A DNA stretch of 34,246 nucleotides, taken from assembly GCA_013001685.1 (NCBI GenBank), contig JABDMD010000183.1:1-34246 (forward strand). Reading direction: 5' to 3'. Every line of letters begins with the position of its first letter. The first letter of the stretch is position 1. Below the pieces are notes generated by a model, which was given only the letters and a program-made list of their open reading frames with translations, was not told where the DNA came from and did no database searches. The stretch is from Gammaproteobacteria bacterium. GTDB lineage: Bacteria; Pseudomonadota; Gammaproteobacteria; UBA4575. A program made the translations under genes and the position numbers. Positions 11,638-33,310 of this stretch are shown here, one piece after another.

Positions 11638-12945
11638 ATGAGTGATAGAAGAAAACGTCGTAGTTTATCCTCCAGAGACCGGATAGGTAAATATCAATTA
11701 GATAAAATTATTCATCAAGGTAAATATCGAACTATCTATAAAGCGCATGACCCGTTTCTGGAGCGTGACGTTGCAATTAAAGTCAGTCAGTTTCCTGATG
11801 ATCAAGACGGCGAAGAAAATTCCCAGCAACTGCGTAATTCGTTTTTTCTAGAAACTCGCGCGGTTGGTCAATTACAACACCCTAATATTGTATCGGTTTA
11901 CGATGCGGGTGTGGGTGATCGGCAAACTTTTATTGTAATGGAATATATACATGCTAAAAGTTTAGCGTCTATGATGAATGCTAAAGAAGAAATTCCAGTA
12001 TCAAAAGCAATTGATATTATATTCAAGTGTTGTAAAGCACTTGAATATGCGCATAGTAAAAATATTGTGCATCGCGATATAAAACCCGCAAACATACTTA
12101 TTACTGAAGATGGAAATGTCAAAATTGTTGACTTTGGAATTGCGAAAGTGCGCAATGAAATCGATACTTTTTCTAGTGGTTTATTTGGTTCTCCTCTATA
12201 TATGGCGCCAGAGCAAATAGAAGAACAAGAAGTGGGCCCAGGAACAGATTTATATGCACTTGGAGTAGTGCTGTATGAGTTGCTAACGGGTGGTAAAATA
12301 TTTGAGGCAGACAATGTGCATACGCACCTGTATAAGATCTTAAATGAAAAGCCTAAACCTCTTTCAAGTTATGGTGTTGAGTATGCAGAAAAAATTCAGC
12401 CTATCATTGACCAGGCTTTAGAAAAACAAAGTGATCAGCGTTATCCTGCTGCAGCCGATTTTGCTGCTGCAATTCGTAGTGTGGATATTGCACTGCGTTA
12501 TGAAGAAGCAGAAATAATTAAGCGCGTCAACGCAGACCAAGCCGGTACGCTTGAATTCTTTAAAGAATTTAGTCAGAAACAGTTATCTGAATTTGTTGAT
12601 CTTGCAACATGGTTGCGCATTTCTAATGGTGAGACCATTTTATCTGCAGGAGAGATCGACCAAACATTTTATGTGATCGTTGGTGGTAAAGCGATTGTAT
12701 ATAAGTCAAATGAACCAGTTAAAACTTTATCCGAAGGTGATTGTTTTGGAGAGATTGGTTTATTAAGAAATGAAAATAGCAATACTAGTATTATGGCAAG
12801 TACTGATATGCTGTTAATGAAGTTAACTTCTACTGATTTAAATAAAATGTCTACTGATTTACAAGCACAGTTTTATAAGTCGGTTGCTCATTCTATGGTT
12901 AAACGCTTGGCAGATCATAAAATTGCTGCTGATAAAGCTGCATAA
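11638..12945 (+). CDS. Ser/Thr protein kinase with C-terminal cyclic-nucleotide-binding-like domain
   Basis: This 435-residue, apparently soluble protein joins a Hanks-type kinase (about residues 18-290) to a cNMP-binding-fold domain (about 305-425). Catalytic elements are intact: Lys48 in VAIKV, HRDIKPAN with Asp147 and Asn152, DFG at 165-167, and the activation segment ending MAPEQ. The glycine-rich loop is reduced to HQGKYRTIY, with only the middle Gly kept. In the C-terminal domain the phosphate-binding cassette starts FGEIGLL (370-376) but then reads RNENSNTS, lacking the Arg-Ala that normally holds the cyclic phosphate. It may thus sense another ligand or serve as a structural or oligomerisation module. 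There is no transmembrane segment. It starts 14 bp after mpl and probably shares its transcript. Substrates are unknown. Confidence 0.9.
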   Translation: MSDRRKRRSLSSRDRIGKYQLDKIIHQGKYRTIYKAHDPFLERDVAIKVSQFPDDQDGEENSQQLRNSFFLETRAVGQLQHPNIVSVYDAGVGDRQTFIVMEYIHAKSLASMMNAKEEIPVSKAIDIIFKCCKALEYAHSKNIVHRDIKPANILITEDGNVKIVDFGIAKVRNEIDTFSSGLFGSPLYMAPEQIEEQEVGPGTDLYALGVVLYELLTGGKIFEADNVHTHLYKILNEKPKPLSSYGVEYAEKIQPIIDQALEKQSDQRYPAAADFAAAIRSVDIALRYEEAEIIKRVNADQAGTLEFFKEFSQKQLSEFVDLATWLRISNGETILSAGEIDQTFYVIVGGKAIVYKSNEPVKTLSEGDCFGEIGLLRNENSNTSIMASTDMLLMKLTSTDLNKMSTDLQAQFYKSVAHSMVKRLADHKIAADKAA

Positions 12946-23470: not shown

Positions 23471-24199
23471 TTAACGGCGCACCACCCAAAGCCAAATTCC
23501 TGTTATAGAAAGTATTAGTAGTAATATGCCTGCTAAATCTATAACGTAAATTCCATATTTACCAAAAACTCGTCCACTGTGGGCGTCGAGTAAAAACCTT
23601 TCTAAATTAATTTGTTTGCTCATGTCATGAGATTCTATTGTTTGCCTTAATGCAGGTAGTGTTATCGCAGGCGCTACCCAGTGAGGATGAGGTCCTTGTA
23701 GTTTTTGCCAGCTAGTTAAATCGCCGAGATTTTCCCAATAAGTATTAATTCCACGCACAACAGTAGTATTATTTTTTGAGAGTGCGATGCCTATAGGAGC
23801 TTCCTGTAAGCCATCTTGTGTTGTGACTTCATCAATAATGTCGCCTTTATCGTCTATTACAATTAATGAATTTGAGGTGGCAATAATTATTTCACTATTC
23901 GAGTCGGAGGTATGTTTAATGGCACCGTGAATAGCTGAAACTTCATCTGTAATAGGCTTGCCAGATAAATAGACTGATTCTCCAGCATGGGAAATGGTTT
24001 GGTTGCCTAGTTGGTAAGTCGTGATTGGATTGGGTTTTATACCGTAGTACTTCAGTAACCAGGAGTTGGTCAAGTATTGCGCATTTAGATTGAAGTCATC
24101 ACTATGCTGTAATGCAATACCGGTAATAACTAAAAAAACAATAAATGATGCAGCAAGCAGGCCTATTCTGCGATGCCACTTGTGGAGTTTGGCGGCCAT
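23471..24199 (-). CDS. PepSY-associated transmembrane protein
   Basis: An inner-membrane protein of about 242 residues with one N-terminal helix (about 11-30, after the His-rich LHKWHRR), a periplasmic domain of about 175 residues and a C-terminal helix (about 217-240). The end reads LLDAHSGRVFGKYG then DLAGILLLILSITGIWLW, the typical PepSY_TM ending. Relatives are often tied to iron acquisition as ferric-siderophore or flavin/haem reductases; conserved His6 and His9 and the later DAHSG could hold haem. The frame is open to a TTG at 24247, but the ATG at 24199 gives the standard MAAKLHKWHRR start. It follows the FMN-binding and porin genes on the same strand; the former is a plausible electron-transfer partner. 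Confidence 0.85.
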   Translation of the reverse strand: MAAKLHKWHRRIGLLAASFIVFLVITGIALQHSDDFNLNAQYLTNSWLLKYYGIKPNPITTYQLGNQTISHAGESVYLSGKPITDEVSAIHGAIKHTSDSNSEIIIATSNSLIVIDDKGDIIDEVTTQDGLQEAPIGIALSKNNTTVVRGINTYWENLGDLTSWQKLQGPHPHWVAPAITLPALRQTIESHDMSKQINLERFLLDAHSGRVFGKYGIYVIDLAGILLLILSITGIWLWVVRR

Positions 24200-24344
24200 A
24201 ATCTTAGGAAGCTCTGATTTATTAATACAATGACTGAGATGAGGCAAAAAATATTGAGAAAGCGGAATGTATGTTTAAATACATGAGCATTTTGAGATCA
24301 TATTTTAACGAAGTATCGGGATAAATCAGCGGTTCCTAAAAATA

Positions 24345-24851
24345 CTAACACGAATCTTTAGTCACGTGTTCATGTAGCAAAAGAGCCATTCTGGAAATGC
24401 TAGTAACTGCATTTACTGAAAGTGTTGCGCCAGAAATATTGTCAATTGTGGTATCTAATCTGTTTTTATCGGTTAATTTTGCACCGATAAATTGCTGCCC
24501 AAAAAAATCATGTTTAACTTCCCAACCACGGCTTTCTCTAAAAACTAATACTTTCACTTTCTCAAGCCCCTGAGAGTTCACTGCGAAACCAGTAGTGATC
24601 GGTCGCTCTTTGCCGATTTCCTCAAGTACCCAAGCAGTTCTGCAACCATCTTGCCAATAAGGTACACGAATCTTTTTGTAGCGATGATCGAGAATCTTTT
24701 TAACTTGCTTGGATAGGTCTCCTGATAGCGTTAATCGCTGAGGGTCTGGAACGCTATCAAAAGTGCTCGCCAAAAAATCATCTTGTGATTGATATACTTC
24801 TTCGGCATGCGCGAAACTGAATAATAAACTGATGCATAAAATCCATTTCAT
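24345..24851 (-). CDS. periplasmic FMN-binding domain protein
   Basis: A 168-residue exported protein with signal peptide MKWILCISLLFSFAHA, cut after about residue 16. The C-terminal part is an FMN_bind domain with the flavinylation motif DNISGATLS (137-145), in which Thr143 is the expected attachment point for FMN by an ApbE-type transferase. The same motif occurs in NqrC and RnfG and in the small proteins of extracytosolic electron-transfer chains. No apbE gene is in the window. It lies between the porin and the PepSY membrane protein on the same strand, suggesting electrons pass from the membrane to FMN in the periplasm, for example to reduce ferric iron; that is inference. Cys70 and Cys168 could form a disulfide. 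Confidence 0.88.
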   Translation of the reverse strand: MKWILCISLLFSFAHAEEVYQSQDDFLASTFDSVPDPQRLTLSGDLSKQVKKILDHRYKKIRVPYWQDGCRTAWVLEEIGKERPITTGFAVNSQGLEKVKVLVFRESRGWEVKHDFFGQQFIGAKLTDKNRLDTTIDNISGATLSVNAVTSISRMALLLHEHVTKDSC

Positions 24852-24964: not shown

Positions 24965-26227
24965 TTAGAACATATAGCCTATACCTAAATCAAAGCCATC
25001 AAAGTCGCGACCATCTGCTTCCGCTTCTGGGTCATGCGAACGATCTCGGTAGTCAAATTTAACTACTACGTCTGTATGTGGCCACCAATTTGCACCCACT
25101 TCCCATTGGCTGAACTGATCTTGTACACGTGCGCCTTCAACTTCTTCGTAACGAGCATATAATCCAAGCCAGTTATTCACTTTGAAACTTGGTTCAAGAT
25201 ACCATCCAAATTGCTCGTCGATATCTCCTGCAGCATCTTCAATGTCACCACTGAAGTCCCATTGTGCATAGAGAGCACGTAAACCTAAACGGCCTCGATT
25301 ATAGATAGCATGGGCTTGATAAAGTGTTGCATCATCAATGAAGTCATCTTCAGCATTTGTGTCATCATCTTGTGTAGGATCGGTTTGATGGTTTATAGAT
25401 GCTGCTAATTCAAGGCCTTGAATGCCAGTGTATTTAACGCGTCCAGTAACGGCTGGGTCGCTTAAACGTTGATTTGAAACTTTACCGCGTGCGCTTCTGA
25501 TTCGTCCGCTAGTTCCTGAGAAATTTAAACCTGAATGTAAGGCAGCATCAAATGAGAAACCATTGTTTGTGCGAAACGTTGATCCAACACCTGCTTCCCA
25601 CCATGTTGATGGAATAATTACGTTTTCGACATCATTGCGCTCTACACCATAGAAAGTGGGTGGTTCATGAGTCTCGTTTAAAATTCCAGCTGGAACTAAG
25701 AAAACGCCGCCACGAACTTGAGCGTTATCGTTAACATCATATTCAATGTAGGCCTGTTCAATTTCGACTTCTCCACCAAGAGGATCGCCATCTGCTTCAA
25801 CGCCACCATGCTCAATTTCAAATTCAGAAACAAAACGTAAATCATCGGTAAATTCTTTACCGACAAATAGTACGAATCGATGTAGGTCAACTTCTTCTAA
25901 ATCGCGGTCGCTATCATCCGCACTTAAATTGTTATAGTGCACTTCTCCATACCCACCTAATGAAATACCTTCAAAAGCATCTAGAGGGCTGTCTTCAACA
26001 ACTTCTGCAGTAGCATTTGCAACTTCATTTGCTTCGTCTGCTTTCTCTTCTGCACGTGTGGCAGTTTCCATTGCTTGTTTTTGCTGAATCATTAAATACT
26101 CAACTGCCTTTTTAAGGTTTTCGTATTCTTCTCGGTCAACTGAGATTTGTTCCGCCTGTAGAGGCAGGGTGAGAGCAAGTAGTGCACTTAATGCTATAAG
26201 CTTGCTTGCTGGTTTAATGCATATCAT
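24965..26227 (-). CDS. outer-membrane porin with N-terminal coiled coil
   Basis: A 420-residue outer-membrane beta-barrel protein. A signal peptide ends at PLQA (about residue 25), followed by a coiled coil (about 30-75, rich in Glu, Ala and Gln) that probably binds peptidoglycan or makes trimers. From about 88 (SLGGYGEVHYN) there are alternating amphipathic strands with aromatic girdles, and the C-terminal residue is Phe (LGIGYMF), the BAM recognition end. Loops are strongly acidic (DDDTNAEDDFIDD), suggesting a cation route. It resembles porins of the phosphate-selective OprP/OprO superfamily, but specificity cannot be read. A Fur-like box lies 83 bp upstream and a terminator just downstream. 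Confidence 0.87.
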   Translation of the reverse strand: MICIKPASKLIALSALLALTLPLQAEQISVDREEYENLKKAVEYLMIQQKQAMETATRAEEKADEANEVANATAEVVEDSPLDAFEGISLGGYGEVHYNNLSADDSDRDLEEVDLHRFVLFVGKEFTDDLRFVSEFEIEHGGVEADGDPLGGEVEIEQAYIEYDVNDNAQVRGGVFLVPAGILNETHEPPTFYGVERNDVENVIIPSTWWEAGVGSTFRTNNGFSFDAALHSGLNFSGTSGRIRSARGKVSNQRLSDPAVTGRVKYTGIQGLELAASINHQTDPTQDDDTNAEDDFIDDATLYQAHAIYNRGRLGLRALYAQWDFSGDIEDAAGDIDEQFGWYLEPSFKVNNWLGLYARYEEVEGARVQDQFSQWEVGANWWPHTDVVVKFDYRDRSHDPEAEADGRDFDGFDLGIGYMF

Positions 26228-26309: not shown

Positions 26310-26328
26310 AATGAGAATGATTCGCATT
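26310..26328. promoter_or_regulatory. candidate Fur box
   Basis: The 19-mer AATGAGAATGATTCGCATT is palindromic except for one pair and its centre. It agrees with the 7-1-7 Fur consensus TGATAATNATTATCA at 11 of 14 defined positions (26312-26326). It lies 83 bp upstream of the porin start and 106 bp upstream of the divergent DUF1461 gene, so it could serve either. Confidence 0.65.
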
Positions 26329-26434: not shown

Positions 26435-27163
26435 ATGAAAACCCGTTCTGCAATTCTAAATTTCCTACTTTCTCTATCATTATTTTGTGTGAGTTTTTAT
26501 ATCGCGTGGAACATCAATGCAGCTACAAACTTTTTGTATTCGACTTGGTATGAAGTGCTTAGTCTTGATGCGGCGATTAGTAAATACGCGCCTGATAATA
26601 AATTTAAGTATGGTTTTGAACATACAAATAAACAGCAGCATATTGAATCGTTTTCAGGAATTGTTGATGCAATTCAAAATAACGGGCAAGGCTTAAAGGA
26701 GTTAAGTTACACGGATTCAAAAAATCATGTGACGAGTACACTTCTTACTGATGCTGAAGTAATACATCTTGAAGACGTGGCTAATTTAATAAGTAAATTT
26801 AAATATCTTGCTATTTTTGGATTTCTAATTGCATTTATAGTTTTTATGTTGATGCGGTCTAGAAAAGTAGCAATAGCAAAGTTTAAACGTCATCTGCTTG
26901 GCGGAATAGGAACAATATTAACGTTAGCAGTTTTAGTAGTGCTGATAGGACCAACGAAAATATTCTATGTTGGCCATGAGCTAATATTTCCAAATAATCA
27001 TCAATGGTTTTTTTATTATGAAGAATCGCTAATGAGTACAATGATGAAAGCACCGGCATTATTTGGCCCCATTGCATGTCAGTTGCTTTTGTTAACGATG
27101 TTGCTTTGGTTGTCTGCGCTATACCTCTTACAGTGGCTGCAAGCTAAGTTTAGAAAGGTTTAA
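26435..27163 (+). CDS. DUF1461 membrane protein, homologue of lipoprotein transacylase Lit
   Basis: A 242-residue inner-membrane protein with hydrophobic segments near 8-30, 123-141, 155-175 and 208-232 and an extracytoplasmic loop at about 31-120. Two features point to DUF1461: HLEDVANLI with His111, and GHELIFPNNHQWFF with His181, followed by a hydrophobic, Pro-containing segment. In Firmicutes this family includes Lit, which moves an acyl chain within the lipid-modified Cys of lipoproteins to give the lyso form, using two histidines. Lit-type activity in this Gram-negative is inferred and may not hold. It is divergent from the porin with a Fur-like box between, and its 3' end overlaps hemJ by 14 bp tail-to-tail. 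Confidence 0.72.
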   Translation: MKTRSAILNFLLSLSLFCVSFYIAWNINAATNFLYSTWYEVLSLDAAISKYAPDNKFKYGFEHTNKQQHIESFSGIVDAIQNNGQGLKELSYTDSKNHVTSTLLTDAEVIHLEDVANLISKFKYLAIFGFLIAFIVFMLMRSRKVAIAKFKRHLLGGIGTILTLAVLVVLIGPTKIFYVGHELIFPNNHQWFFYYEESLMSTMMKAPALFGPIACQLLLLTMLLWLSALYLLQWLQAKFRKV

Positions 27164-27584
27164 CGACAACCAGAATTACTATTGCGAAGAGTGCAAGCAC
27201 AGGTGCTTCATTAAACCATCGATACCAAACATGTGATTTGGTATTGGAGTCGTTAGCAAAGGCTTTAGCTATTCTTCCGCACCATACATGGTAAATAATA
27301 AGTAATATGATAAGTAGTAACTTTGCATAGAACCATCCAGCAGTCACATACGCACTCCAATTAGCAACTAATAGCAAAGTACCGAAGACAATTGTCAAGG
27401 CCATGCTGGGCGAGGTGAATCTATATAGTTTGCGCTCCATGATTTTAAAACGCTGTTTGGTAGCTTGGTCATCCGTCATTGCATGATGCACAAATAAGCG
27501 AGGTAAATAAAACAAACCCGCAAACCACGTAATTACAAATATGATGTGGAAAGCTTTTAACCACGGAAAGATACTTAGAAGCAT
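27150..27584 (-). CDS. hemJ: protoporphyrinogen IX oxidase HemJ
   Basis: HemJ oxidises protoporphyrinogen IX to protoporphyrin IX, the penultimate step of haem synthesis. It is a 144-residue inner-membrane protein with four helices. The N-terminal LKAFHIIFVITWFAGLFYLPRLF is diagnostic and holds the conserved His13. PSMALTIVFG and the Lys in WFYAKLLL are also family markers, as is the C-terminal WFNEAPVLALFAIVILVVVKPF stretch, given here in pieces: WFNEAP then VILVVVKPF. The length is typical. It follows the ClC gene by 21 bp on the same strand and may be co-transcribed with it. It is placed near, but not beside, hemL. Confidence 0.93.
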   Translation of the reverse strand: MLLSIFPWLKAFHIIFVITWFAGLFYLPRLFVHHAMTDDQATKQRFKIMERKLYRFTSPSMALTIVFGTLLLVANWSAYVTAGWFYAKLLLIILLIIYHVWCGRIAKAFANDSNTKSHVWYRWFNEAPVLALFAIVILVVVKPF

Positions 27585-32260: not shown

Positions 32261-33310
32261 ATGCATAAAAAAGTTTCAGAAATAGTAAATGAATTTTCAG
32301 AATGGAATTTGTTTATAAAGCAAGAAGGGCCAGATAATGAAATAACGGGGATGCCAGATGTTAAAATTTCTGGTGAGGGTGCTTTGGTGTTTATTGAAAG
32401 TGAAGAATACGTTACGTATGCAAGAAACCTAAAACCTTCTGCAATAATTACCAATGAAAAACTTGCAAATAAATTTTCAGATTTAATCGATACGGCAGTG
32501 TTGGTAAGTTCAAATGCAAAATTGGCACAAGCATTATTACGACAAGCTTATGTAGATCGTGATTTTCGCGATAATGGTTGGCCACAAGTTCATAAATCAG
32601 CTGTGGTGCATGAGTCTGCAAAAATTCAAAAAAATGTAAGCATTGGGCCTAATGTGGTTATCTCAAAGAATGTAAGTATTGGCGAGAATACCACGGTATT
32701 GGCAAATACAGTTATTGAGGAGAATGCACAAATAGGTTCTGACACTATTATCCATGCCAATGCTACTATTGCCTATGCTTGTGTAATTGGTGATAGGTGC
32801 ATTATTAAGTCAGGAGCAGTAATCGGTATGGAAGGTTTTGGTTTTGCGCAAGACGAAAAACAAAAAAGTTATCGAGTGCCGCAATTAGGTAATGTGGTTG
32901 TAGGAAATGATGTAGTTATAGGTGCTTGCAACACAATAGATCGTGCAACTTTCAATACCACATTTATTAAAGATGGATGTAAGTTTGATAACCAAGTGCA
33001 TATTGCGCATAACACAACAGTTGGTGAAGATGGATTAATTGCAGCGCAATGTGGTGTGGCAGGATCAACTGTTATTGGTAAAAGAGTGCGTTGCAGTGGT
33101 CAGACTGGAATTATCGATCATTTAGAAATTAGTGATGATTGTGTATTTGTGCAACGTGCAGCCGCATTAAGCGATATAAAAGAGCCCGGGATTTATGCAG
33201 GGAATCCATTGCTTCCGATGCGACAATGGTTCAAGAATGCAGCCATACTCAAGCAGCTTGAAGAATTGAAAAAAACAGTTAGCCGACTCGATAAGCTCTC
33301 AAAAAAATAA
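32261..33310 (+). CDS. lpxD: UDP-3-O-(3-hydroxyacyl)glucosamine N-acyltransferase, stand-alone
   Basis: LpxD adds the second hydroxyacyl chain to UDP-3-O-acyl-glucosamine in lipid A synthesis. The 349 residues comprise an N-terminal uridine-binding domain (about 1-108, with ALVFIESEEYVTYA), a left-handed beta-helix of hexapeptide repeats from about 110 (HKSAVVHESAKI), and a C-terminal helix (about 325-349). The catalytic His is His250 in HIAHNTTVG, with GMEGFGFA and DNQVHIAH as family landmarks. The late segment RAAALSDIKEPGIYAGNP differs from the common LpxD ending. The gene stands alone after the erpA terminator, without bamA, skp, fabZ or lpxA beside it, so it may be a second copy. Its partner could be the isolated lpxA at 8.9 kb. 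Confidence 0.9.
   Translation: MHKKVSEIVNEFSEWNLFIKQEGPDNEITGMPDVKISGEGALVFIESEEYVTYARNLKPSAIITNEKLANKFSDLIDTAVLVSSNAKLAQALLRQAYVDRDFRDNGWPQVHKSAVVHESAKIQKNVSIGPNVVISKNVSIGENTTVLANTVIEENAQIGSDTIIHANATIAYACVIGDRCIIKSGAVIGMEGFGFAQDEKQKSYRVPQLGNVVVGNDVVIGACNTIDRATFNTTFIKDGCKFDNQVHIAHNTTVGEDGLIAAQCGVAGSTVIGKRVRCSGQTGIIDHLEISDDCVFVQRAAALSDIKEPGIYAGNPLLPMRQWFKNAAILKQLEELKKTVSRLDKLSKK

Follow-up and report, generated by a model that had tools for sequence, protein, structure and literature searches.

Does a gammaproteobacterium that has the N-acyltransferase Lnt also make an alternative form of its lipoproteins with a Lit-type enzyme, and does iron control whether it does so? The question is raised by an open reading frame in the window, the whole stretch of 34,246 nucleotides that was analysed here, which had been read in a preliminary description as encoding a DUF1461/Lit-like protein next to a Fur-like box. 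The features of the locus are collected in Table 1.

Table 1. Features of the lit locus (positions in the window).
Feature	Position	Strand	Remarks
PepSY-associated TM protein	23471..24247	-	PF03929; follows the FMN_bind gene
FMN_bind domain protein	24345..24851	-	PF04205; follows the porin gene
Outer-membrane porin (Porin_O_P)	24965..26227	-	PF07396; first gene of the divergent operon facing the box
Fur-like box AATGAGAATGATTCGCATT	26310..26328		separates lit from the divergent porin operon; end 106 nt from the lit ATG
lit homologue	26435..27163	+	242 aa; four predicted membrane helices; predicted cytoplasmic N and C termini
HLEDV, codons 111-115	26765..26779	+	by alignment to B. cereus Lit; where the second membrane helix begins on the outer side
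Codons 177-191, second extracytoplasmic segment	26963..27007	+	by alignment to Lit; Phe177, His181, Phe185, Trp191
UPF0093 protein, convergent	27150..27584	-	PF03653; 14-nt overlap with the 3' end of lit

Family, fold and active site of the lit product

The lit reading frame starts with ATG and is a real open reading frame. In a Pfam profile search residues 12-204 of its product match PF07314 (Lit, formerly DUF1461) with 46.6 bits (E 5.3e-12), as compared to a gathering cut-off of 24 bits, and the match covers positions 5-171 of the 176 positions of the profile. The proposed DUF1461/Lit-like assignment therefore stands for Pfam, but it does not extend to TIGR01906, against which the protein scores 37.4 bits and thus stays under the cut-off of 74.8, nor to the NCBIfam Lit equivalog NF051877 (32.9 bits, cut-off 400). 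Since both NCBIfam cut-offs are missed, membership in Lit applies at the level of the superfamily only, and the protein represents a divergent subfamily rather than the curated Firmicute equivalog. A phmmer search of all PDB chains returned a single match, Lit of Bacillus cereus (7b0o/7b0p, E 2.2e-4), with which the protein shares about 20% identity. Judged by its sequence, the 242-residue protein is a member of the Lit superfamily.

The membrane layout had been described as matching that of Lit, and this is borne out by an AlphaFold2 model generated from a 12-sequence alignment (pLDDT 88.6, pTM 0.82). In a Foldseek search of the PDB with this model the top six matches are all B. cereus Lit, the Lit entries are the only significant ones, and the TM scores to 7b0o/p/q/r range from 0.61 to 0.68. 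Likewise, VIA-align superposes the model on B. cereus Lit with a Z of 14.8 and an rmsd of 3.7-4.0 over 213 residues, the next unrelated chain reaching a Z of 5.5. The four helices are predicted at residues 3-30, 106-142, 150-171 and 206-241, and helices 2 and 3 are separated by the basic loop RSRKVAIAKFKRH, which is predicted to be cytoplasmic, so that both histidine segments would lie outside and both termini inside. As in Lit, the model places His181 in an outer helix (173-184) and His111 where helix 2 begins on the outer side. The superposition on 7B0O/P/Q/R, the helix positions and the basic loop together point to an extracytoplasmic His111-His181 dyad, with the two histidines probably as close to each other as the 5 A or so expected of a Lit dyad. 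The lack of a significant family match or an incompatible model had been named as grounds for abandoning the assignment; what was obtained is a significant match and a model that fits.

The motifs HLEDV and GHELIFPNN, from which two conserved histidines had been proposed, are found at residues 111-115 and 180-188. By alignment to B. cereus Lit, His111, Asp114 and Val115 correspond to His85, Asp88 and Val89, and Phe177, His181, Phe185 and Trp191 to Phe149, His153, Phe157 and Trp162; in mature numbering, which is offset by 19, chain residues 104 (aligned with His111) and 172 (aligned with His181) of the Lit structure become His85 and His153. The residues reported as highly conserved in Lit are His85, Val89, Phe149, His153, Phe157 and Trp162, and mutagenesis has shown that both histidines and Phe157 are required (Olatunji et al., PMC8275575). 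All six have invariant equivalents (His111, Val115, Phe177, His181, Phe185 and Trp191, each 82/82) among 82 distinct gammaproteobacterial homologues, and Asp114 is conserved in 81 of them. These homologues were retrieved with the peptide patterns [NDE]HQWFFY and [TM][LM]M[KQ]APxLF[GA], and conservation within the patterns is thus partly due to selection; His111, Asp114, Val115, Phe177, His181 and Phe185 lie outside them. The active site is followed by an invariant motif private to this subfamily, WFFYY..SLM...M.AP; the stretch HQWFFYY..SLM begins at codon 189. We had also considered His189 as an invariant third histidine of the site and rejected it, as it is present in only 72/82 homologues. 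The protein is a Lit by fold, pocket and dyad, but its subfamily falls outside the curated equivalog.

The Fur-like box and the iron context

The Fur-like box noted beside lit is real, and relatives have kept it ahead of their lit genes. In the window, AATGAGAATGATTCGCATT is the sole match to the pattern AATGMGAATNATTCKCATT, with 0 mismatches, and it remains the sole match when 3 mismatches are allowed; the chance expectation at that tolerance is 0.17 matches, which can serve only as a guide because the pattern was written after the site had been seen. Agreement with the classical 19-bp Fur consensus of E. coli is moderate (13/19), and the box is set apart by the 9-1-9 palindrome pattern rather than by this consensus. 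On the other side of lit, the convergent UPF0093 gene presumably encodes a HemJ-type protein, and the 3' overlap of the two genes recurs in most relatives of the host's family. Elsewhere in the window, the product of 11638-12942 combines a protein kinase domain of the eukaryote type with a cyclic-nucleotide-binding domain and adjoins a Mur-ligase-type protein. Downstream of a bactofilin gene, 32261-33307 encodes a hexapeptide-repeat protein that falls slightly short of the LpxD cut-off and may be an LpxD-like acyltransferase.

Within the host's family lit is present in 9 of 19 genomes, and all nine carry a Fur-like box. In eight of them the end of the box lies 98-116 nt upstream of the lit start, and in the ninth the box heads a six-gene iron operon that ends with lit. 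The sequence AATGAGAATGATTCGCATT recurs unchanged in two other genomes of the host's genus, 106-108 nt from the lit start. A fourth genome of the genus, G001, has the identical box between the porin and an imelysin-CCP_MauG-DHOR-imelysin-DUF1513 operon, where lit follows as the sixth gene, 34 nt after DUF1513. Two further genera of the family have the variant AATGAGAATGATTGTCAAT/C, which ends 98-116 nt from lit and has bfd or bfr on the side away from lit. No member of the imelysin family was found in the host genome (G000) or in G002 and G003, that is, where lit directly follows the box, and this suggests that in these genomes the imelysin operon was lost and lit was left behind its promoter. 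The gene directly after lit in G003 encodes a Fur-family regulator. A Fur-family regulator gene in a sister genome (L026, 8105-8524) is convergent with lit and 1 nt apart; there is none at that place in the window.

Would the box then regulate lit, or does it serve only the divergent porin or bfd, with lit merely adjoining? We consider the latter rather doubtful. It would fit with the porin-FMN_bind-PepSY and bfr/bfd genes being plausible Fur targets by themselves, and promoter prediction gave no sigma-70 promoter directed towards lit. Moreover, outside the host's family lit lacks iron neighbours, the genes next to it being varied by visual inspection (diacylglycerol kinase, alpha/beta hydrolases, pseudouridine synthase and others), which rules out an iron context as a general trait of gammaproteobacterial Lit. 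Against this stands the finding that three different arrangements, porin/lit, bfd/lit and lit at the end of the imelysin operon, all place lit downstream of a Fur-like box, and that the imelysin genes are missing where lit directly follows it, as if lit had been retained at the promoter. The background chance of a box of at least 17/19 in such an interval is 2%, but as the genomes are related, it is the three arrangements that carry weight rather than this figure. The iron control suspected earlier thus retains the conserved box in the host's family as its support, but has none in the gammaproteobacterial Lit genes elsewhere. We suggest that in the host's family Fur-iron would repress lit and that iron scarcity would derepress it together with the neighbouring iron genes.

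Distribution, coexistence with Lnt and the likely substrate

The presence of a Lit homologue in a Gram-negative gammaproteobacterium, which had been the point of departure, is no isolated oddity. Of 370 genomes sampled evenly across the class, 36 (about 10%) have a Lit homologue above the Pfam cut-off. This contradicts the statement in a 2021 review that Lit is without homologues in Gram-negative bacteria (PMC8689077). In the literature covered by our search, outside which most subscription papers lie, we found neither a description of a Gram-negative Lit nor the name DUF1461. A scan of genome contigs yielded 216 relatives, and the best 80 of the 216 span many gammaproteobacterial orders; looking for plasmid-borne relatives, we found none. 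In a sample of the phylum 5 of 397 genomes match, and all five are Gammaproteobacteria, the share of that sample from outside the class being only partly listed. Named carriers include Thalassolituus maritimus, Pseudoalteromonas denitrificans, Colwellia hornerae and Thiomicrorhabdus arctica; Thalassolituus and Colwellia do not belong to the host's family. The gammaproteobacterial sequences form two groups, one with the WFFYY..SLM motif and a shorter one bearing cysteines (L002, L012, L117, L122 and L123). The latter shares with the former the Pfam Lit match, HLTEV/HLADV and HP..F segments and a similar topology, but its members are about 210 residues long, have paired cysteines in the first outer segment, lack WFFYY..SLM and align only weakly with the group of the lit product.

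The host, a marine-type gammaproteobacterium with a genome of 2.64 Mb (99% complete), carries a full-length Lnt (G000:C50, 311.9 bits), and this settles the question of lnt in the same genome that the preliminary description had raised. It also has Lgt, LspA and LolA and a single full-length LolC/E/F-type protein, i.e. one of the LolF type. Lit is therefore an addition to and not a substitute for Lnt, and a replacement of Lnt in the host is ruled out. Similarly, Lnt is present in 48 of 49 named Lit-bearing gammaproteobacteria tested, in 26 of 27 Lit-bearing genomes tested from the class sample and in the genomes of the cysteine-bearing group. A link of Lit to loss of Lnt was looked for and not seen: 2/15 Lit-bearing as compared to 6/79 Lit-free relatives lack an above-cut-off Lnt (p 0.61). 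The exception in the class sample is G021 (1.5 Mb, 97% complete), where Lit, Lgt, LspA and LolA are present and a search of the genome gave zero Lnt candidates and no LolC/E/F above the cut-off, for which assembly gaps could account. The lit gene of G021 begins 2 nt after a LysM/M23 (NlpD-like) gene bearing a lipobox; the locus (L024, 5580-7691, contig C22) has lit right behind the nlpD-like gene and is apparently a pcm-nlpD locus. A conserved lipoprotein partner gene did not emerge from the comparison of same-strand neighbours, a lipobox being found in 4/53 neighbours of lit and in 33/932 others (p 0.13). As a separate observation, two Gammaproteobacteria whose genomes are reported to be 100% complete, G030 and G064, have Lgt, LspA and LolA and neither Lit nor an above-cut-off Lnt.

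What, then, would Lit do beside Lnt? By homology with B. cereus Lit, we infer that His181 would deprotonate the N-terminal amine of a diacylglyceryl-cysteine lipoprotein, which would then take over the molecule's own sn-2 acyl chain, with protonated His111 stabilising the intermediate, and that the product would be an N-acyl, S-monoacylglyceryl (lyso-form) lipoprotein. Lit would thereby draw on the diacyl substrate in competition with Lnt and convert a fraction of it, without consuming phospholipid or leaving lyso-phospholipid behind. Being N-acylated, the product should still enter a sorting route of the LolDF type. LolF species are known to survive the loss of lnt (PMC8689077), a Firmicute Lit keeps E. 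coli viable without lnt via the Lol system, so that a diderm cell is able to use the lyso-form product, and N-acylation appears to license entry into Lol (PMC11784454); in combination these findings suggest that a lyso-form lipoprotein could be sorted in a cell of the host's type. On balance, and by a modest preference, we believe that the protein is a Lit-type transacylase which makes some lyso-form lipoproteins beside Lnt and is probably derepressed in iron scarcity. Set against this reading are the low score to the NF051877 equivalog (32.9 of 400 bits), the limited identity to B. cereus Lit, and Lnt itself, whose presence in nearly every Lit-bearing gammaproteobacterium means that the substrate would be contested and that the need for a lyso-form is not evident.

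For the same reason, and because of the private motif, the main rival with regard to the substrate is a Lit with the same fold and acyl-shift chemistry that acts on another molecule, for instance an aminolipid, a lyso-phospholipid or a particular lipopeptide, lipoproteins not being its main target. Where Lnt coexists with Lit, as it does almost everywhere, little diacyl lipoprotein would be left, and the distance from the equivalog model, the WFFYY..SLM...M.AP motif, which may reflect a different acyl substrate, and His189, usually present as a third histidine close to the dyad in the sequence, would all fit such a role. We nevertheless regard it as unlikely, as all pocket residues named as highly conserved in Lit are kept and G021, in which no Lnt is detectable, keeps Lit beside a lipoprotein gene. 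A constitutive low-level backup of Lnt without a special physiological role seems quite improbable: the single LolC/E-type protein of the genome and the tolerance of LolF species to lnt loss (PMC8689077) would make N-acylation less critical and a redundant enzyme harmless, but an active site that is absolutely conserved in many orders speaks for a selected activity.

Lit homologues with a whole active site in about one tenth of the sampled gammaproteobacterial genomes prompt one to ask if lyso-form lipoproteins are made in diderms and, further, why one cell would keep two competing N-acylation enzymes. As a tentative generalisation of the preferred reading, Gram-negative bacteria with an intact Lnt may make lyso-form lipoproteins with a Lit of their own, in the host's family upon iron starvation, the acyl form of outer membrane lipoproteins would then be environmentally switched in diderms, and Lit might have replaced Lnt in at least one gammaproteobacterium. 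The named sequenced carriers are practical hosts for a direct test.

Comparison with known systems

With the Lit proteins of B. cereus and Enterococcus faecalis (PDB 7B0O-7B0R) the lit product shares the fold, the four-helix topology with an extracytoplasmic cap and the His-His dyad, and it has equivalents of Asp88, Val89, Phe149, Phe157 and Trp162 of the B. cereus enzyme. It differs from the latter in the low identity of about 20%, in length (242 as compared to 218 residues), in its private WFFYY..SLM motif and in that its host is a diderm gammaproteobacterium which has Lnt too. A further parallel is Lit2 of the mobile copper elements of Listeria and Enterococcus, a Lit which likewise occurs in cells whose lipoproteins otherwise take another form and which is apparently under metal control: Lit2 is induced by copper and co-transcribed with lgt2 on mobile elements (PMC8689077). 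The lit gene described here, by contrast, is chromosomal, stands in an iron context, has no adjoining lgt copy and has no plasmid-borne relatives among those found. Does metal stress select the lipid form in this family as well, as copper does for Lit2 in Listeria? Finally, Lnt shares with Lit the N-acylation of the lipoprotein cysteine, but it is an unrelated nitrilase-type enzyme that draws on a phospholipid as acyl donor, and it is separately encoded in the host genome.
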